DNA of 39,629 bases from the IMG/VR virus record IMGVR_UViG_3300044765_000089, positions 1 through 39,629 of that record. One strand, 5' to 3'. The translations under genes were made by a program, and so were the position numbers. The stretch comes from a virus. The notes under the pieces were generated by a model. That model was not told the DNA's origin and searched no databases. It was given only the letters and a program-made list of their open reading frames with translations. This document shows positions 3,314 to 19,257 of this stretch, one piece after another. Each line of letters opens with the position of its first letter. Position 1 is the first letter of the stretch.

Positions 3314-3682
3314 ATGACCACCACCACGAGTTACACGGATGAGCAGGTGCTTACCGCTCTTTTTATGGACGGTGCTGGCCTACTAATAGCCAGCGATGTC
3401 AGGAACATAGTCAAATCTCTTCTCGCCGACCGCCAGCGCCTGCAAGCAGAAAATGATGCTTATAAAAAGGCTTGGTCGGAAGCATCCGCCGAGGTCTTCT
3501 CTTTGCAAGCGGAGGTGGAGGCGTTGCGCTGGTTGCCAGATGAATCCAAGGACAAGTGGGCACCGGGCGATCACTACAACGACGGCGAACATAACGGCTA
3601 CATCAATGGCTGGGATGCGTGCCGCGATTCAATCATTTCGCACCGCGCCAACCAGAACGAAACCAAGGAGGCGAAGTCGTGA
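3314..3682 (+). CDS. Ea22/Ead-like accessory protein, 122 aa
   Basis: A leading helix region is followed by a coiled-coil stretch (SLLADRQRLQAENDAYKKAW, then SLQAEVEALRWLPD) and a C-terminal NGYINGWDACRDSII segment. This layout is common in the Ea22/Ead-type accessory proteins of lambdoid phages, which have no firm function. The next gene starts with GTG inside its stop (GTGA). Confidence 0.65.
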   Translation: MTTTTSYTDEQVLTALFMDGAGLLIASDVRNIVKSLLADRQRLQAENDAYKKAWSEASAEVFSLQAEVEALRWLPDESKDKWAPGDHYNDGEHNGYINGWDACRDSIISHRANQNETKEAKS

Positions 3683-3867
3683 AGATTGAAACTATTGACG
3701 ACGTTATTGCATGGCATCGCGAACGTGCAGAAATGTTTAGTCATGGCGGCTTGCCTTGGGGCTCGATGGCAAACGAGTCGTTGCAGATAGTGAAGATTCT
3801 TGAACAACTGAATCCCTTCATGCGCGTCAAAGAGAACAAGGAGACCGGACATGGCGATGACGATTGA
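3679..3867 (+). CDS. Small hypothetical protein, 62 aa
   Basis: I place the start at GTG 3679, which overlaps the preceding stop as GTGA. The protein (MKIETIDDVIAWHRERAEMF) carries a DDVIAWHRERAE helix and an acidic end, and resembles short early proteins often encoded beside Ea22-like genes. It overlaps the next gene by 17 bases. The function is unknown. Confidence 0.6.
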   Translation: MKIETIDDVIAWHRERAEMFSHGGLPWGSMANESLQIVKILEQLNPFMRVKENKETGHGDDD

Positions 3868-4615
3868 GCAAGCGTTAGCGGCGCTTCGTTCTGCTGAAAG
3901 CGAATACCTTTCCTTCATCGACACCAATGGTCTGATTAAATGCGCAAGCTTGTCTGAGATTGCCGACGCCATCGACGCCCACCTCTCCGCGCAGGCGAAG
4001 GTGAAGGTGACAAATTCCGGACTGCCGCGAGAGCTTCGCCTAGTGTGCGGGCATGACTCGCGCTCCGTTGTCGGATGTCTTCATTGCGAAGCGGCAGACG
4101 CACTTGAATCTCATAGTGTCAACCGCGCACTTAATGAGACTTCCGTTAGTGATACCGAGTTGCTTGAGGCAGCTCGTGAAGTTGGTCTCCGCGCCTATCT
4201 GCACGGCGTTGGCCCGACTGACGCCAAGAATATTTTGCGCCGCTTCGTGGACAAGATAGCCGCCCGTCTGTCGCAGGGCGCGCAGGAAGTACCTGAGCCG
4301 ATCCAGGAACTCGTCCGCAATCAGAAAACTCCCAGTGCAGAAGACCGGGCACTGATCACAGCCAACCTGGACTTCCTTGTGTCGCAGTCATCCGGAAATT
4401 CCGGAGAGGTGGCGCGGGGCGCGCAGGGTGAGGCTGTGGCGTGGCTTGATCCTGATACGCAGGATGCAATCACCGATCAGCGCAAGAGAGATTGGGCGGC
4501 CAATTTCGGCGCAGGAGGCATTAAGAAAGCCAGCTCATATACGGTTCCGCTCTACACCCACCCTCCCCGCGCTGGTGCGGATGCGAGGGATGCGGAGAGT
4601 AACGATGCCGACTAA
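3851..4615 (+). CDS. Ea22/Ead-like mosaic accessory protein, 254 aa
   Basis: The ATG at 3851 is preceded by AAGGAG. The N-terminus is helical ([20 protein letters not shown]). A Cys/His cluster lies at about residues 66-80 ([20 protein letters not shown]) and could bind a metal. The C-terminus carries [20 protein letters not shown] and [11 protein letters not shown], a segment shared by many phage Ead-type proteins. It is probably a mosaic of swappable modules. The role is unknown. The stop overlaps the HNH gene by 11 bases. Confidence 0.65.
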
Positions 4616-8504: not shown

Positions 8505-9206
8505 TCAGCTATTCGGGAAGGGTGCGGTAGGCGGCGTGAAGTTGGAGGTATACCGGGCGACGCCCTTGGTCACGCGGAAATCATCGATGTAGCCGCCGTA
8601 CGAGAATCTGTTATCGCCAATAGTCGCCGAATTGGACCCCACATACAGCGTATCGGTGTCGTTGTTGTCAAAAGCAAGACTGGACGTAGCGACGCTTGAG
8701 CCGTTCAGGTAGACGGTTAATACACCAGAGGCCCTCACCACGGCGACATGAGACCACGTGCTGATGCTGACGGATGCCGTCAGGTCGGTCGTGCCGGCGC
8801 GGCGCACGGTAATCACGGTGGGTGTCACACCGATAGACAGGCCGCCCGTTGAGTTAACGCCCTTCAGATAGCAGACGCCGAAGCCGTTAGTGGGCGCGAC
8901 CGGATTGAACCACCCCTCAATGGTGAAGTCCGACGTTCCCATCTGAAGGGCCGTTTTATCGGTCGTAGAAATGGGGCTCAGCGTCCCCACCGGAAAGTTG
9001 GCGCTCGAACCGCCGAACTTGGAACTGGCAGTAGATATGGTCGAAGATCCATTCCTCGTCCATGTATTGGTGGCAATCTGGTCAGTGAACGTTGTGCTGC
9101 CGTTGGGACCATCGAAGTGGAGCAGGGCTACCACATTGGCAAAATAAGGGTCCGTCGCACCGCCGCCAGCAGCAGAGGCAAAAAAGCCAGGGCCACAGGT
9201 AAACAT
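8505..9206 (-). CDS. LamG / concanavalin-A-like tail-tip protein
   Basis: I start at ATG 9206, which overlaps the preceding stop as TAATG, giving 233 residues. The core is a LamG-type jelly-roll: VVALLHFDGPNGSTTFTD, SKFGGSSANF, DFTIEGWFNP, STWSHVAVVRASGVLTVYLN and a final YIDDFRVTKGVARYTSNFTP, matching the Laminin_G_3 pattern almost end to end. Such domains bind sugars or surface polymers. At the end of a fibre gene cluster it is probably the distal receptor-binding or fibre-accessory protein. Confidence 0.85.
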   Translation of the reverse strand: MFTCGPGFFASAAGGGATDPYFANVVALLHFDGPNGSTTFTDQIATNTWTRNGSSTISTASSKFGGSSANFPVGTLSPISTTDKTALQMGTSDFTIEGWFNPVAPTNGFGVCYLKGVNSTGGLSIGVTPTVITVRRAGTTDLTASVSISTWSHVAVVRASGVLTVYLNGSSVATSSLAFDNNDTDTLYVGSNSATIGDNRFSYGGYIDDFRVTKGVARYTSNFTPPTAPFPNS

Positions 9207-9679
9207 TAGGCGTACCCCGCCCCACCCCCACAAAGGAGGGCATCGCTAGCGCTGTCGTAGTAAGCGCTAAAGAAATTGATGCCGTTAGCCGTGGTGACCC
9301 AGGTTGGGGAAGTGCCGCTAGGCCATTTGAACTTGGACCCTAGGGTTATCGTGCGGCCGCCAGTCGCGTCTTGGCGCAGCCTGAAATTGAGTACGACACC
9401 CGCCTCAAGGTTAGTTGGGTTAGCGATGGTCAGGTTGCCGGTGAGCGTGTAGTCGAAGTTATTGGATGCACTGGCGTCGGGCGTGACGGTTCCGGTCGCC
9501 GAGCTGTTGACGACAGGGATGACTCGCTGCGACTTGCTGAAGTCGTTTTGCTGGGCCACGAGCCACGCCAGCAGGTTAGACATGGAAAGCTGCTTGTCTG
9601 TGCCCGACTGGACAATCTGGAAGATCTCGGCGCCCGTAAGCGCACCTGCCGCGCCGTAATCGGTAGCGTACTTACTCAT
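9206..9679 (-). CDS. Tail-fibre-associated protein, 157 aa
   Basis: The N-terminus reads YGAAGALTGAEIFQIVQSG and then KQLSMSNLLAWL, a trimerisation-like start seen in phage fibre proteins. It is followed by a beta-rich body (FDYTLTGNLTIANPTNLEAG, TITLGSKFKWPSG) typical of fibre-tip folds. It lies between two fibre genes and probably forms a segment of the host-recognition fibre. The role is inferred from composition and position. Confidence 0.7.
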   Translation of the reverse strand: MSKYATDYGAAGALTGAEIFQIVQSGTDKQLSMSNLLAWLVAQQNDFSKSQRVIPVVNSSATGTVTPDASASNNFDYTLTGNLTIANPTNLEAGVVLNFRLRQDATGGRTITLGSKFKWPSGTSPTWVTTANGINFFSAYYDSASDALLCGGGAGYA

Positions 9680-9684
9680 GCATG

Positions 9685-10536
9685 TCAGCTCGCAATGGTG
9701 TTATCGGAGAAGCGACGCCAGTTGGTTCCGTCGCTGTAGCAAGGCGCTCCACCACCCGTCAGATCGGTGACGAAGATAAGGCCGTACTTGTACGTAGCGG
9801 CGCTCGGCAGCGTGGCTAGAGTGAATGCCAGGAGGGGCTGGATGGACCCGACCGCGCTATTGGCCGTCAGCTGAACCAGCGATTGGCTGGTGAGGTTGTC
9901 GCCCGTCTGGTCAGTGAGGTCCGCCAGCGTTAGGGACGCATCGGAGATGGTGGTGACACCTGCGCCATCGGTACTCAGGTTGATGCCGGGACCGGCCGCA
10001 AGGGCCGCGGCGACACGGCTATTGGTGAAGTAGAGATTGCTTGTCCCCTCGGCCAGATCGTCCGTCGTCGCCGAACTGGTGCCACTGACGCGACCGTAAG
10101 TATCCCTGCTCATCCGAAGCAAGACGCCGCCACCCGCATCGGGCAAGACAGGAAGGTCTAGGCTAATCGTGCCGTCCGGGTTGACGACCTTGGCTAGCGT
10201 CGTCGTTTCGATGGTGTCCGAGATGCTGTACCAGCCCTTGCTGCCTAGGCCGTTGGTCCCGTAGTAGCAGGTAGGGCCGGGATTGTCGTTATCTCCGAAC
10301 AAGGAGACGGTGACGACGTTGGGTAGCGCACCAATGGTCGAGATCGAGCCAATGCCACGGATGATGCCGTACGTAATCTCTGGGGGTGGCGTGGGATCGA
10401 CGGGCGTCGTATTGGCTAGGCGGTTAACAGCCTCCCCTACCGCACTCAGGTAGACGTACCAAGGACGACTAGCAATGCCTCCTTGGTCAACAACTGCCTG
10501 GTTGAAGTTGGGCGGTACAAGCCTCGCGGAAGCCAT
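9685..10536 (-). CDS. Tail fibre / structural protein, 283 aa
   Basis: The start region (MASARLVPPNFNQAVVDQGG) and the motif RPWYVYLSAVGEAVNRLAN are shared by phage fibre-base proteins. The centre carries TTDDLAEGTSNLYFTNSRV, a very common tail-fibre repeat motif, followed by a beta-rich end (SDGTNWRRFSDNTI). It most likely forms a fibre shaft that joins the head-proximal fibre protein encoded upstream. Confidence 0.75.
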   Translation of the reverse strand: MASARLVPPNFNQAVVDQGGIASRPWYVYLSAVGEAVNRLANTTPVDPTPPPEITYGIIRGIGSISTIGALPNVVTVSLFGDNDNPGPTCYYGTNGLGSKGWYSISDTIETTTLAKVVNPDGTISLDLPVLPDAGGGVLLRMSRDTYGRVSGTSSATTDDLAEGTSNLYFTNSRVAAALAAGPGINLSTDGAGVTTISDASLTLADLTDQTGDNLTSQSLVQLTANSAVGSIQPLLAFTLATLPSAATYKYGLIFVTDLTGGGAPCYSDGTNWRRFSDNTIAS

Positions 10537-10539
10537 GCG

Positions 10540-11343
10540 TCAAGCACTGCCCCAGGCGGCATAGGTGAAGGTGACAGGGATGTTGATGACCGTTCCCGAA
10601 TCGGCGGTCGATTCGTTGATATCGAAGGACACCGTAAAGCCCGTTCCGGAGCGAGCCGTCACCGTGGGGATCGGCGCAAAGCCCTTGCTGGTGATGGGCG
10701 TGACAGTCGGCGTCACGTCCACGTGGTCACACGAGGACATGGTCTTGGTGAAAGTCACGCTCACCTGTGTGTTGTGCGTCCCCGAGGCCGGAGCAGTCCC
10801 GCCACCCAGCTGAACAATCTTGGTGCCGATCTGGATGACATTGCCCGTCTGAGACAAGCCGCCCTCGGGCAGGGTCGGGATGGTGGGCTGGGCTATCCAG
10901 AAAAGGGCTGACCCATCCGTACTTAGGATCTTGTTGGCCTGTCCCGTGGGATCGGGCACCTGAAGCACGTCCGCCCACTGTAGGACCGCTCCGTCGTTGG
11001 TCAGGAACTTGCCCGCCTGAAGGGCTGGGATGGCCGTCCCGGAGCCGCCAGGAAGCTCTACATCGTCCCGCTCGGCCACGAGGGTATTGTCCGAGGCATA
11101 CAGCCTCACCCGATAGCTGCCGTCGCCCCATATGTCGATAGGCATCCCCAGGCCGTTGACCGTCCGGCCGTCCGTGCCGATGGTGATCTGGCTGCCGTTG
11201 TTGACCGTGAGCCCCTGGTCGCCGTAGACATCCTTGGGGGTCGTCGTGCCGGACTCATAGAACTTGAGATAGCCGGATACGGCTAGGTTGCCCTGGCTGT
11301 CCAGGTAGACCGGGAAGGGGTTGTAGACTCGAAAGGCGGTCAT
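10540..11343 (-). CDS. Tail fibre with head-binding-like N-terminus
   Basis: This 267-residue protein starts VYNPFPVYLDSQGNLAVSGY and continues with LKFYESGTTTPKDVYGDQGL and GDGSYRVRLYASDNTL, the pattern of P22-tailspike-like head-binding domains in podoviruses. The C-terminal half is a different, beta-rich fold (TVTARSGTGFTVSFDINEST) that may be the receptor-facing part. A hairpin with T-run and a GGA-type ribosome binding site lie directly upstream (11352-11386). Confidence 0.8.
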   Translation of the reverse strand: MTAFRVYNPFPVYLDSQGNLAVSGYLKFYESGTTTPKDVYGDQGLTVNNGSQITIGTDGRTVNGLGMPIDIWGDGSYRVRLYASDNTLVAERDDVELPGGSGTAIPALQAGKFLTNDGAVLQWADVLQVPDPTGQANKILSTDGSALFWIAQPTIPTLPEGGLSQTGNVIQIGTKIVQLGGGTAPASGTHNTQVSVTFTKTMSSCDHVDVTPTVTPITSKGFAPIPTVTARSGTGFTVSFDINESTADSGTVINIPVTFTYAAWGSA

Positions 11344-15065: not shown

Positions 15066-15786
15066 TGGTAGGCGTCCATCCGTTGCCCATGCCACCCCAG
15101 GTAGTCGCCAGGGAGCCCGAGCCCGTATAGGTGCCTTGTCCCGTTAGCGAGTTGAACCCGTTGCCATAGGACGAGGTATTCATGGGCTGGTTGTTACGCT
15201 GTCCGTACCACTGGCCGAAGGCATTGGCGGCCTGACCGAGCAGGTTGGCATTGGCATTCGCAGCGTCGTAACCGTAACTGGCCTGATTCGCCGCATTGCC
15301 CATCAAATAGCTGCCGATGGAGCCTGCTTGGCCGGCTCCAATACTCCCCAGGTTAGAGGCGGCGTTCTGGCCCATGCCGGCGAGCTGGGAGAGCTTGCTG
15401 TAGTACGAGTTGTAGTTCTGGTCCGCCAGGCCCTGGGCGTAATTCAGCACGTCGGCGCTATGTCCGCCGCTATAGAGCGACCCACGAGCTGCCGCAGAGC
15501 GGTCTAGACCCTTCAGGCCTTCCGTAAGGCTGAATTGATAGTCCGGGGACGCATGAAAGCTGGAATAGTCGCCATTGTTCAGCGCACCCAGCCTAGACAG
15601 TGCATCGTTACCAGCGTTGATGTACGGGTTGAGGTTGGCCGCGGTGCGGTCGTAGTTGAGGTTCTGTTGCGCAATGGCCTTGTCGGCCGCCTTCTGCGAA
15701 CCTCTGGCGGCCTTATCGGCTGCGTTGTTCTGCATGATGCCGCCAACAACGGCACCACCCACTGCTGCTGCTACACCCCAGGGCAT
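15058..15786 (-). CDS. Ejection protein (P22 gp7-like position)
   Basis: This 242-residue protein begins WGVAAAVGGAVVGGIMQNNA, a Gly/Ala-rich hydrophobic start, then has an alternating Ala/Gln/Asn body (ADKAIAQQNLNYDRTAANLN, SPDYQFSLTEGLKGLDRSAA, ARGSLYSGGHSADVLNYAQG). This pattern is very common in phage DNA-transfer proteins encoded first in the ejection cluster. The C-terminus is Asn/Gly/Ser-rich and low complexity. Confidence 0.8.
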   Translation of the reverse strand: MPWGVAAAVGGAVVGGIMQNNAADKAARGSQKAADKAIAQQNLNYDRTAANLNPYINAGNDALSRLGALNNGDYSSFHASPDYQFSLTEGLKGLDRSAAARGSLYSGGHSADVLNYAQGLADQNYNSYYSKLSQLAGMGQNAASNLGSIGAGQAGSIGSYLMGNAANQASYGYDAANANANLLGQAANAFGQWYGQRNNQPMNTSSYGNGFNSLTGQGTYTGSGSLATTWGGMGNGWTPTNG

Positions 15787-16133
15787 TACGCACCCCCTAC
15801 GATCTGATGCTCATCCGTCACGACGGGAGCGTTGGCATGGATGCAAAGGACAAGCGTGTCCGGTTCAAGCGACTTGAAAGTGTGCTTCTTGAACGCAGGC
15901 ACGCGAATGGCCGCTTCCGGCGTTCCGCAGCGGATCACTCGGTCCTCGAACAGCACGGAACCGCGAGCCACGTAGGAGATATGCTCGTAGGCATGGGCGT
16001 GCTGAGGAATCACCATGCCGGCCACCGGCAGATCCATTTCCTTGACGAATGTCTTGCCGTCGCTGGTCGTGTATTCCCGACCGATGGGCTGACAGGCATG
16101 GCGAGCCATGCAGCTATCACAAGGGCTGCTCAT
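15786..16133 (-). CDS. Cupin-domain protein with N-terminal cysteine cluster
   Basis: The cupin metal motif is clear: H45 and H47, E50 and G58 in PQHAHAYEHISYVARG, with the later H84 in FKKHTFKSLE. The beginning carries a CDSCMARHAC cluster (C5, C8, C14) that could bind a metal. The gene overlaps the hydroxylase upstream by 17 bases and the ejection gene downstream as ATGA-type coupling, so it is part of the late structural operon. It may be a small metal-binding oxidase, a sensor or a structural cupin. Substrate unknown. Confidence 0.8.
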   Translation of the reverse strand: MSSPCDSCMARHACQPIGREYTTSDGKTFVKEMDLPVAGMVIPQHAHAYEHISYVARGSVLFEDRVIRCGTPEAAIRVPAFKKHTFKSLEPDTLVLCIHANAPVVTDEHQIVGGA

Positions 16134-16689
16134 TGGACCTCCGAATGCAGATGATGAGGGTGATGCGGTCGTCGTCCGACTCGTTAATCACCCAATGAAG
16201 GCGAGAGTTATCGAACGTGTAGAGGTCGCCAGGAAGCGGCCTAAGCTCGGCATCCTCGAAGCAGAAGGCCTGCTTGTCGTTTCCCTTGACCTGAATGGCG
16301 AACTTTTCGTAGTGGCGTGCATGCCACCCTTGGTCAATGTGTGGTGCGACTTGTCCGCCGGGCGGGATCTTGGTAATCAGGACGCCGCCCAGGGCGCCAC
16401 CACCGACACGCCTGACCACCTTTCGGCACAGGGACCAGGCGGTCGGGATTTGCTTGATAACCGGATACCAGGTGGATTCGTGGACATCGTTGAACTTGGC
16501 GATGTCACCATCGAAGTTCGACCAAGCGTTATACCTGACCCATATGTCCGATACGGATTTGTGCGGACCGTGGCCTTCGTAGGCATCGGTGCGCATGCGG
16601 TGCCTGTTCCAGACATCGGGATTTGACTCAATCTGGTTCAGCAGCGGCTTAACGTCGTAGCCACTGTCGATCAGCCTAATGGATGGCAT
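16117..16689 (-). CDS. Aspartyl/asparaginyl beta-hydroxylase-like 2OG-Fe(II) oxygenase
   Basis: This 190-residue protein shows the iron facial triad HxD...H: H117 and D119 in QVAPHIDQGWHARHYEKF, and H165 in NSRLHWVINE. An arginine that could bind 2-oxoglutarate follows (R175 or R183). PLPGDLYTFDNS before the last histidine is the usual Asp/Asn hydroxylase signature. The enzyme would hydroxylate a protein side chain using oxygen and 2-oxoglutarate. Lying between the tail-hub and ejection genes, its likely targets are virion proteins or a host protein made late (inference). Confidence 0.85.
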   Translation of the reverse strand: MPSIRLIDSGYDVKPLLNQIESNPDVWNRHRMRTDAYEGHGPHKSVSDIWVRYNAWSNFDGDIAKFNDVHESTWYPVIKQIPTAWSLCRKVVRRVGGGALGGVLITKIPPGGQVAPHIDQGWHARHYEKFAIQVKGNDKQAFCFEDAELRPLPGDLYTFDNSRLHWVINESDDDRITLIICIRRSNEQPL

Positions 16690-16904
16690 CAGCTGTCCGT
16701 CTGTTCGAGAAGCATGGAGCCCGACAAGAGGTCGGCCCGCACGGGGTCGGTGACGCGGATCTCAAAGACCCACTGGCGCCCCATACCGAACGCCCTGGCC
16801 TGTACGCGTTTGACGAAGTCGCCCGTATCACCCAAGGCGATCTTCCGGAACTCGGACCAGTTGCGGCCCCCGTCCTTGCTGTATCGCAGATCGACGTAGT
16901 TCAT
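16689..16904 (-). CDS. Detached C-terminal segment of the gp10-like tail-hub protein
   Basis: This 71-residue protein contains VDLRYSKDGGRNWSEFRKIA, then GDTGDFVKRVQARAFGMG and WVFEIRVTDPV. This is the motif series that normally ends P22 gp10-family proteins (RYSDDGG..WS, G.Y..R..W.RLG, RVFEV..SDP). Here it is a separate gene. Its ATG overlaps the stop of the large gp10-like gene (ATGA) and has GAAGG five bases upstream, so it is translated by coupling. It probably assembles with the upstream product. Confidence 0.75.
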   Translation of the reverse strand: MNYVDLRYSKDGGRNWSEFRKIALGDTGDFVKRVQARAFGMGRQWVFEIRVTDPVRADLLSGSMLLEQTDS

Positions 16905-18844
16905 GCGGCCTTCAAATAGAAGTCGAAGTAGCAGGCGTCAGTTGGGCCTGTCGCGGAGTCGTCATCACAGCGGACGGCTATGACGTTCGTCCCTGACACA
17001 AAATGGGTCGCGTCGAGGTGAGTGGTAACACCAGCATGCTCGATGGTGCTGCCGTCGGACACGAGATAGCCGTTGACGAAGAACTGATAGCTGTTGTCGA
17101 AGTAGCCGACCAGGGTGTAGCCGTTAGCGCTTACCGCATCCAGGACGATCTTCCGGCGAATCCACAGCCTCTTATTGAGCGGCGTGGCCGTGGCAATGGT
17201 CGTGGAGAAGCGACTGTCATAGGCATGGGCATCCGTGCCTTCGCTCGGCGCACCTGAGATGTCGCCAAAGGGCGCCTGACCGGTTGTCCACGACGAATCG
17301 TCGTAACTCGATCCCGAGTAGTCCGTGTTATCCGTCAGATCGATCGACTTGTAGCGCCACCCTGTTTGCTGGGCGGGGATGACGAGCGAGTAGGTGACCG
17401 AATCCGCCAAATCCCTCTGGTTCGACTGGCTATCGGTCACCCGGACGGTCCAGCTGTATGTGCCCTCCGTGGTGGGTGTTCCAGTGACCAGGCCGTTGTT
17501 GTCGATAGACAGGCCAGGTGGAAGCGAACCACTGACAATCGTCACGTTGATCGGACGATGGCTAGCCTTGATGGTGTACTGGTAACTGACCGGCGAGCCC
17601 ACATAGCCGTCAGGAAGCGCTCCCGTGATAGAGAGAACATTGCTCGGCGGCGGCAATGCCGTGGGCGGCAAGCCGGTATCAATGACCAGTTCCAATCCAT
17701 TGACGATGACGCGGTTCTGATTGTCGTGAAGGACGCCAGTGACGCGGCGGCGCTCCATCTCTATGCCGTCCTCCGTCTGGACATTCCAGTCCAACCGATA
17801 CAGCTTGCCGTTCGAGAAGTCGCCGGCAATCCACATCCCGTTCCAGTACGTCAGCGTATTGATGCGCCAGCGATTGAGGCTCTTAGATTCGCGGCGGTGC
17901 CATTCGCCCGATGAAACGTCATACCCCCACGTCATCCCATCCGGGAAGGTCAGGTAGTAGATCTTGTGCCCCTGATCCTCATAGACCATGGAGAAGCACA
18001 GCGATGTGTTGCATTGCGCGATATCTGCCTCAATGGGGTAAGTAGATACCCGCATCGGGGTATATCCATTCGCCCGATAGACGATGCCATCGTCACCCAG
18101 CCACATCACCGTGTTGTCGATAAGCGACAGGCAATGCGGAGAGGCCGCGCCACGCTCCATGACTACACCAGCTTGGCGCTGGAAAGTGCCCGTGGCCTGT
18201 CCATCGTCAACATAGGGCTCAATCGTCCGCTCGCCTACAAGCCACCATTCGCGGTGAGTGACGATCTGGCCGATGAGCTTGTCGGGCGAACCCTCGGCCT
18301 CGTAGCGATCCAGGGAGCTGTACGAAAGCGCGTCAGCCAGATCCGAGTGGAAGGCGAAGCGACGGCCGGGCTCTACGCCCGTAATGTAGCCATCCACGAA
18401 GTCGAACGAGATGGAGCCAATAAAGGCCTCGTCCGTGATCTGGACAAGGCTACCGTTGACCGTGTTGTAGACGTAGCCAGATTGGCCGTTGGAAATGGCG
18501 ACCTGATTGCCGCCCGTAATCTGGTTGTGGGACATCGACACCCGCCCCGTGCCGGGGATCTTGCCGATGTACTGCGAGGCTCCATCAGGCGTCACCAGGA
18601 ACAGAGATGTCCCCGACACCACCAGGAGTCTACCCTCTACGTTCCGAGCCCCTCGAATCGGCGCACCGGTCCCGAGATCACAAAAGGTGTAATACCCAGG
18701 AGCGCTGCGCAGCTTGGATACGGAGCGCGTCCCAGGACGCTCAGCACGGACGGGGATGTAATTGACCGTATCCTGCACAGACCATGGCTTGGACTCGTCC
18801 GAATAGGCTCCGCCGATGATGGGGGCCGGCTGCCAGCGAGCCAT
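16901..18844 (-). CDS. gp10-like tail-hub (packaged-DNA stabilisation) protein with inserted Ig-like and carbohydrate-binding-like domains
   Basis: Residues 1-391 match P22 gp10-type stabilisation proteins: RWQPAPIIGGAYSDESKPW, VQDTVNYIPV, RSAPGYYTFCDLG, then a beta-propeller-like body ending RVIVNGLELVIDTG. Instead of the normal C-terminus there follows a He_PIG/Ig-like domain (about 395-492; PPGLSIDNNGLVTGTPTTEG) and a galactose-binding-like jelly-roll (about 493-647; WIRRKIVLDA, GYFDNSYQFFVNGYLV, NVIAVRCDDD). The missing C-terminal piece is the next gene. The protein plugs the portal/tail channel, and the insert may project outward and bind the host surface (inference). Confidence 0.8.
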   Translation of the reverse strand: MARWQPAPIIGGAYSDESKPWSVQDTVNYIPVRAERPGTRSVSKLRSAPGYYTFCDLGTGAPIRGARNVEGRLLVVSGTSLFLVTPDGASQYIGKIPGTGRVSMSHNQITGGNQVAISNGQSGYVYNTVNGSLVQITDEAFIGSISFDFVDGYITGVEPGRRFAFHSDLADALSYSSLDRYEAEGSPDKLIGQIVTHREWWLVGERTIEPYVDDGQATGTFQRQAGVVMERGAASPHCLSLIDNTVMWLGDDGIVYRANGYTPMRVSTYPIEADIAQCNTSLCFSMVYEDQGHKIYYLTFPDGMTWGYDVSSGEWHRRESKSLNRWRINTLTYWNGMWIAGDFSNGKLYRLDWNVQTEDGIEMERRRVTGVLHDNQNRVIVNGLELVIDTGLPPTALPPPSNVLSITGALPDGYVGSPVSYQYTIKASHRPINVTIVSGSLPPGLSIDNNGLVTGTPTTEGTYSWTVRVTDSQSNQRDLADSVTYSLVIPAQQTGWRYKSIDLTDNTDYSGSSYDDSSWTTGQAPFGDISGAPSEGTDAHAYDSRFSTTIATATPLNKRLWIRRKIVLDAVSANGYTLVGYFDNSYQFFVNGYLVSDGSTIEHAGVTTHLDATHFVSGTNVIAVRCDDDSATGPTDACYFDFYLKAA

Positions 18845-19257
18845 CAGAGATAGAACCCAGCACGCCAGCCATAGATGTTCGGCTGACTCTCGCCACGAGG
18901 CAGGTCGTCGTACGAAACGCGATCATGGCTGCTTGACTGAACCGCGGCCACAAGCGATGCAAGACCGCTTTGCGCCATGGCAACGACATCAGGATCGACA
19001 GTGACGCCATAGCGAGCCCTCAGACGCAGTGCTAGGTTGTAACCCAGCATCTCCTGAAGCTCAGGGAACAACAGCTCGTCTGTGGGGAGCGTGACTGGCT
19101 GCCATCCCAAGGTAATGCCATCGCCCTCCCACGCCTGAACCATGGCGTTGAGCGCAGTAATGGCGTTCTCCGTCTGCTTCGGAGTAGGTACGTCCTCATC
19201 ATCGACCACGCGGAGGTGGCCGAGCGCGGCACGCACGATGTCGATGACTTGGGCCAT
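18844..19257 (-). CDS. gp4-like tail accessory / head-completion protein
   Basis: This 137-residue protein reads DIVRAALGHLRVVDDEDVPT and QTENAITALNAMVQAWEGDG, then LPTDELLFPELQEMLGYNLA, the pattern of P22 gp4-type tail accessory factors that bind under the portal before gp10. The order coat, gp4-like, gp10-like agrees. The gp10-like gene starts inside its stop. Unlike P22 gp4 no muramidase signature is evident. Confidence 0.8.
   Translation of the reverse strand: MAQVIDIVRAALGHLRVVDDEDVPTPKQTENAITALNAMVQAWEGDGITLGWQPVTLPTDELLFPELQEMLGYNLALRLRARYGVTVDPDVVAMAQSGLASLVAAVQSSSHDRVSYDDLPRGESQPNIYGWRAGFYL

Follow-up and report, generated by a model that had tools for sequence, protein, structure and literature searches.

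A gp10-type tail nozzle predicted to form from two chains around an exchangeable module

How does a P22 gp10-type tail nozzle fare when other domains stand where its C-terminus should be and that C-terminus is encoded by a gene of its own? The question is raised by IMGVR_UViG_3300044765_000089, a 39,629-base virus record analyzed from positions 1 to 39,629 (the window). Judging by its gene content, which includes an integrase, portal, scaffold, major head protein, adaptor, and ejection proteins, the window probably represents a temperate short-tailed phage; no DNA-level relative was found among deposited phages. The features of the nozzle region given below lie on the minus strand. The operon order portal, scaffold, capsid, adaptor, nozzle, and ejection proteins matches the expectation for the gp10/Hc3 family. 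Upstream of the nozzle lies a head-tail adaptor gene (18844..19257; phrog_637, head-tail adaptor Ad3, E 1.3e-22), and in gp10-type tails the head-tail adaptor is the partner of the platform domain. The adaptor and nozzle genes overlap by TGATG, as do the C gene, introduced below, and the gene that follows it. Such overlaps are commonplace among the genes of this operon, so the ATGA overlap between nozzle and C gene is not remarkable by itself.

The nozzle gene is an open reading frame of 647 amino acids (16901-18844) with its stop codon at 16901-16903. This frame and the overlapping 71-aa frame are exactly as given in a preliminary description made from the sequence alone, which let a gp10-like core run to about residue 391. 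The match of the long protein to phrog_578 (head closure Hc3, 486 positions) covers profile positions 2-398 (E 1.3e-111). The core (residues 1-390; 17675..18844) is gp10-like and comprises the N-terminal half of a platform domain and a seven-bladed beta-propeller. Both parts of this fold are present in the AlphaFold model, which aligns with residues 2-405 of P22 gp10 (8eap; Z 38.0, rmsd 2.6, 372 residues); the alignment stops at residue 405 of 472. Following ...RVIVNGLELVIDTG is a linker (residues 391-409; 17618..17674) that is modeled with low confidence, as the pLDDT is 61-65 in the blocks covering residues 371-390, then 38, and is <50 at residues 390-401. The next domain (residues 410-487; 17384..17617) is an Ig-like stalk, recognized in the preliminary description as He_PIG and found here as PF05345 with E 1.8e-10 and a score of 41.6 bits, above the Pfam gathering cut-off of 24.

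The distal module (residues 496-647; 16904..17359) gave no significant direct match to a Pfam or NCBIfam family over its ~150 residues. The preliminary description had called it a galactose-binding-like jelly roll. It was tentatively assigned as a sugar-binding-like jelly roll from a seven-row profile (A10), which matched a 9-O-acetylesterase (8.8e-5), a GH2 sugar-binding domain (2.7e-4), and a lectin (3.4e-4) in the PDB, and from a beta-rich model with a pLDDT of mostly 80-90. Searches with the whole model by Foldseek and VIA listed mostly propellers and are therefore uninformative on the fold of the jelly-roll module.

Unlike in canonical P22 gp10, core and C-terminus are not in one polypeptide in the window; the C part lies in another frame after the stop at 16901-16903, and the nozzle was therefore filed as a split variant. 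The C gene (71 aa; 16689..16904) encodes a protein that matches phrog_578 at positions 409-470 (E 3.8e-8) and phrog_19101 at positions 528-593 (E 6.7e-22). Its family profile matches the C-termini of the Pam1 nozzle (7eeq residues 371-427, E 2.4e-10) and the Pan3 nozzle (9vyg residues 375-436, E 3.7e-8). As phrog_578 positions 2-398 are found in the long protein and positions 409-470 in the 71-aa protein, the insert lies exactly between them. By these profile matches, the 71-aa gene encodes the platform's C-terminal half that the long protein lacks, equivalent to P22 gp10 residues about 406-472, so that this half is present at the locus as a neighbor gene. That the small gene carries the true family C-terminus, and that an insertion lies between it and the core, had both been proposed from the sequence and are supported; three relatives with an insert in an unbroken chain also exist. 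Annotation can hide such a split, since the small gene by itself resembles an unnamed hypothetical.

Directly after the C gene, the window encodes an Asp/Asn beta-hydroxylase (16117-16689; PF05118, E 3.7e-7) and a cupin-like protein (15786-16133). Relatives carry DUF6445 or other cupin-like genes in this position (e.g., L006:4674-5282 and L007:6282-6758), in split and unbroken forms alike. Hydroxylation of a tail protein would be a guess.

The structural place of the C half can be read from L116, one of the three inserted but unbroken relatives. Its AlphaFold model aligns with P22 gp10 residues 5-472 (Z 37.3, rmsd 2.3, 434 residues), and both its strand 373-385 and its strands at the C-terminus are ordered, with a pLDDT of 84-90 in most blocks and of 72 in one. 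The equivalent strand of the window chain, which lies ahead of the linker, is poorly ordered and appears unstructured in the model folded without the C half. In these models, the C half sits in the gp10 platform and the last strand of the core would otherwise be without a partner. By analogy, the 71-aa chain would correspond to the C-terminal half of the adaptor-holding platform. The platform of the SU10 nozzle is built from N- and C-terminal parts, the chain exits the propeller at blade 1, blades 1-3 face away from the axis, and the short-fiber dock is on blade 1 (PMC9509320). With the slot for the module likewise opening at blade 1, the module would be expected to project on the tail exterior beside the fiber attachment. 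The preliminary description had called the hub "internal", which does not suit a slot that, by comparison with SU10, opens away from the tail axis beside the fiber dock. Its term "channel plug" is also misplaced: gp10 is the hub or nozzle, and it is the needle that plugs the channel in P22-like tails.

The arrangement is not confined to the window. From scanned viral contigs and a single genome scan, 95 non-redundant loci were obtained, i.e., loci with different C-domain DNA. Forty-four have core and module in one gene and the C domain in a separate gene, 35 are unbroken without a large insert, 13 break elsewhere or have extra genes, and 3 (L116, L117, and L164) are inserted yet unbroken. Because of these three, the idea that every nozzle with an insert is split was rejected. 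Relatives with an unbroken C-terminus, proposed earlier as a check, thus exist among the 95 loci as well as among deposited phages. In each of the 12 deposited phage records opened, the nozzle is encoded by a single gene of about 460-490 aa and lacks a large insert; the C domain was recognized in the same chain in 11 of them, while phiAX1 gave no C-domain match. Relatives are not all split without an insert, and the 71-aa protein does match the gp10 C-terminus, the two points on which the preliminary description had staked its model. By sequence comparison, the architecture it described is right and wider than it supposed; its insertion as a single event gives way to an architecture that is recurrent and swappable (n = 44 non-redundant loci).

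When mapped on a tree of 82 cores, the presence or absence of an insert requires at least five changes. Where unbroken members fall within split groups, their linkers are short and dissimilar and differ from the GxGLxxGQGSDP linker that is frequent in more distant unbroken members, which suggests that these nested members were re-fused after module loss, the direction being not proven.

Several other arrangements were seen among the relatives; those of L079, L080, L082, and L147 are examples of the 13 loci that break elsewhere or have extra genes. In L079, L080, and L082, the core is followed by a gene in which a right-handed beta-helix and an FN3-like stretch are fused to the C domain, resembling a tailspike on the nozzle dock. 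In L147 (3420-5207) and L193, the nozzle C domain is joined to a GTA TIM-barrel-like protein (PF13547, E 1e-106); in L147, a core with a short insert precedes this fusion, a 595-aa protein of the phrog_19101 type. Phrog_19101 is a family of unknown function with the same size as the GTA TIM-barrel-C protein. In L165 (1939-4064) and L173 (3083-5201), a C-less core is followed by two consecutive genes (167 aa and 537-540 aa), each ending in a C domain, which possibly form a mixed hexamer. L073, L075, and L077 contain a 209-212 aa gene, glycosyltransferase-like by eye, between the nozzle core and a module-C gene (about 3431-4069). In L020 (2298-3763) and L021, a core with a repetitive short tail is followed by more reading frames and then the C gene; as read from the sequences, the slot in these two loci holds more than one gene.

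Comparison of close relatives shows what happens at this slot. L068 and L069 share 96-100% identity in the upstream region, core, and Ig stalk, fall to 37-63% across most of the distal module, and return to 99% in the C gene. L071 and L138 have the same pattern with flanks of 83-100%. Stalk and module both differ in four further pairs, for which identities in core, module, and C gene are 93, 54, and 96% (L132/L134), 96, 55, and 95% (L140/L146), 90, 14, and 93% (L018/L020), and 88, 44, and 89% (L030/L032). L067, whose split is in frame, and L076 retain the same module. In the clade of the window, L003 has a core protein 91% identical to that of the window and an unrelated, SPRY-like module. Phage pairs that are near-identical in core and C gene thus often carry unrelated modules, which marks the site as an exchange slot. 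He_PIG was matched in 26 of 32 inserts of relatives, and the distal parts include jelly rolls, LamG domains, and BNR or WD40 propellers. On this sequence evidence, the module is a cassette between conserved flanks, the 5' flank consisting of the core, sometimes with the stalk, and the 3' flank of the C gene. Cassette-like exchange between conserved flanks is typical of host-recognition parts.

Our preferred reading, which we regard as rather likely, is that the window encodes a two-chain P22 gp10-type nozzle with an external, swappable, and likely host-recognizing module and a separately translated C half. The long chain would supply the beta-propeller and the N-terminal platform half and exit at blade 1, continuing into the Ig-like stalk and then the exchangeable distal module outside the tail. 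Translation of the 71-aa chain would begin from its own start where that of the long chain stops, probably by the ribosome that has just terminated there, and the 71-aa chain would dock on the core and complete the platform, such that the nozzle can bind the adaptor ring. Because the C half has its own start codon, the 3' end of the module would need neither a frame match nor a return of the chain to the C half, and modules could be swapped. Splitting is not strictly required by insertion, as L116, L117, and L164 show.

The module would most likely serve recognition of the host surface, i.e., of glycans, and its binding of the host surface is plausible. A single function shared by jelly rolls, LamG, SPRY-like domains, and BNR or WD40 propellers is an assumption. 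The nozzle may instead be two-chained with a module that stabilizes the tail, docks other fibers, or binds non-host surfaces, in keeping with He_PIG and propellers being generic adhesion or scaffold folds. Further fiber-like genes are present in the window (8505-11343), and the module need not be the main receptor-binding part. However, exchange among near-identical phages is a pattern of receptor binding rather than of structural parts, the distal module profile matches sugar-binding domains, and the C domain in other lineages bears a right-handed beta-helix as in tailspikes. We therefore rate a module without a role in host recognition as unlikely, though a serious competitor.

More doubtful is the idea that the 71-aa C domain has departed from the nozzle to become a separate factor, such as a chaperone or fiber adaptor, with the platform completed in another way. 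Fusions of the C domain to a GTA_TIM barrel, a beta-helix, or other modules in other lineages would fit such a role, as would the two C-domain genes in L165 and L173. Against it, in the split loci seen the C domain remains encoded shortly after the nozzle core, its core residues are conserved to the same degree in split and unbroken proteins, and the last strand of the core would be unpartnered without it. Departure of the C domain is thus improbable.

The two genes of the window share the overlap ATGA (16901..16904), and the same -1 offset is found in 22 of the 44 non-redundant split loci. In 43 of the 44, the C gene starts between -5 and +6 nt from the upstream stop (the exception is at +15), and ATG or GTG stands at the boundary in nearly all split loci. 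The coupling first proposed, by the overlap together with an upstream GAAGG, holds for the overlap only: GAAGG (16909..16913) lies four bases before the ATG, is absent from L004, the closest relative of the window (core 93% identical), and is not conserved, i.e., it is incidental. A conserved Shine-Dalgarno sequence was likewise rejected, as a 4-base match occurs in only 12 of 44 split loci (27% vs. 15% in shuffles). We infer that the C protein arises by re-initiation once the long chain has been terminated. Termination-reinitiation at ATGA and TGATG overlaps has been documented, in Haloferax also in the absence of an SD motif (Huber et al. 2019, PMC6728339). The overlap geometry is alike in those gene pairs, with the difference that the products in the window would be halves of one ancestral domain.

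Alternatively, a fused core-module-C protein would result from a programmed frameshift or stop read-through, and frameshifts have been connected with Ig-like domains in certain phage tail proteins. Relative to the core-module gene, the C gene of the 44 loci is distributed 34/7/3 over the three frames, and since all three occur, a conserved frameshift or read-through is not the mechanism. The stop/start offsets from -5 to +15 and the start codon at the boundary also speak against a fused product, which we consider very improbable; the programmed frameshift was rejected as a candidate. The varying frames fit a module whose 3' end is freed by the separate start of the C half.

Between the window and L004, dN/dS is 0.020 for the C gene, 0.027 for the core, and 0.064 for the module, these values being rough since dS is saturated; at a rough figure of about 0.02, the C gene is under strong purifying selection. 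Among 395 sequenced bacterial genomes searched separately, split as well as unbroken forms were present, so the split is no assembly artefact, and the split was also found in independent sequenced genomes from the family of the Stenotrophomonas genome (L088, Stenotrophomonas sp. BIGb0135). That the C gene is a remnant of gene decay or a sequencing or assembly artefact, an origin that one copy on a virus contig would by itself permit, is to our judgment already refuted by the recurrence of the identical split in many independent contigs and sequenced bacterial genomes and by the dN/dS of the C gene.

A broader reading, to which we give an even chance, is that the C half of the platform is a detachable dock in several lineages, and that either the gap or the dock mounts interchangeable surface-recognition modules, making the nozzle an evolvable receptor-binding part. 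The core would then mount an Ig stalk with a jelly roll, LamG, or propeller, and the dock a beta-helix, TIM barrel, or propeller; no reading-frame match would be needed where the cassette ends on its 3' side. If this is true, P22-like phages have a second, little-noticed place of binding variation in the tail nozzle rather than in fibers or spikes. It would also represent a simple genetic device, in which the conserved end has its own start codon and any module could be placed ahead of it. The arrangement also opens the in-trans docking of a half-domain to direct test.

Enlarged nozzles have precedents in SU10 and phicrAss001; a split gp10 or a module slot at this site was not found described in the literature searched, a body in which subscription journals were mostly outside coverage. 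Ig-like (He_PIG) domains on phage virion proteins have been linked to carbohydrate adhesion, in a description that includes neither a nozzle nor a carrier whose C-terminus is a separate gene. With the packaged DNA stabilization proteins P22 gp10 and Sf6 gp8 (tail hub, nozzle; phrog_578), the window shares the core profile, the platform and propeller fold, and the gene order portal-scaffold-capsid-adaptor-nozzle. Those proteins are an unbroken 472-aa chain without an insert, whereas in the window the C part is separate and preceded by the Ig-jelly-roll module. The closest solved sequence relatives of the core and the 71-aa family, the cyanophage nozzles of Pam1 (7eeq) and Pan3 (9vyg), are unlike the window also unbroken (442-446 aa) and without an insert. 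In the SU10 gp17 nozzle and the phicrAss001 gp44 muzzle, the nozzle fold is likewise enlarged by Ig-like and other domains, which in gp44 have been suggested to touch the cell surface. Their inserts lie between or within blades 2-3 of a single chain, whereas the insert of the window is located at the exit from propeller to platform and the gene is split.
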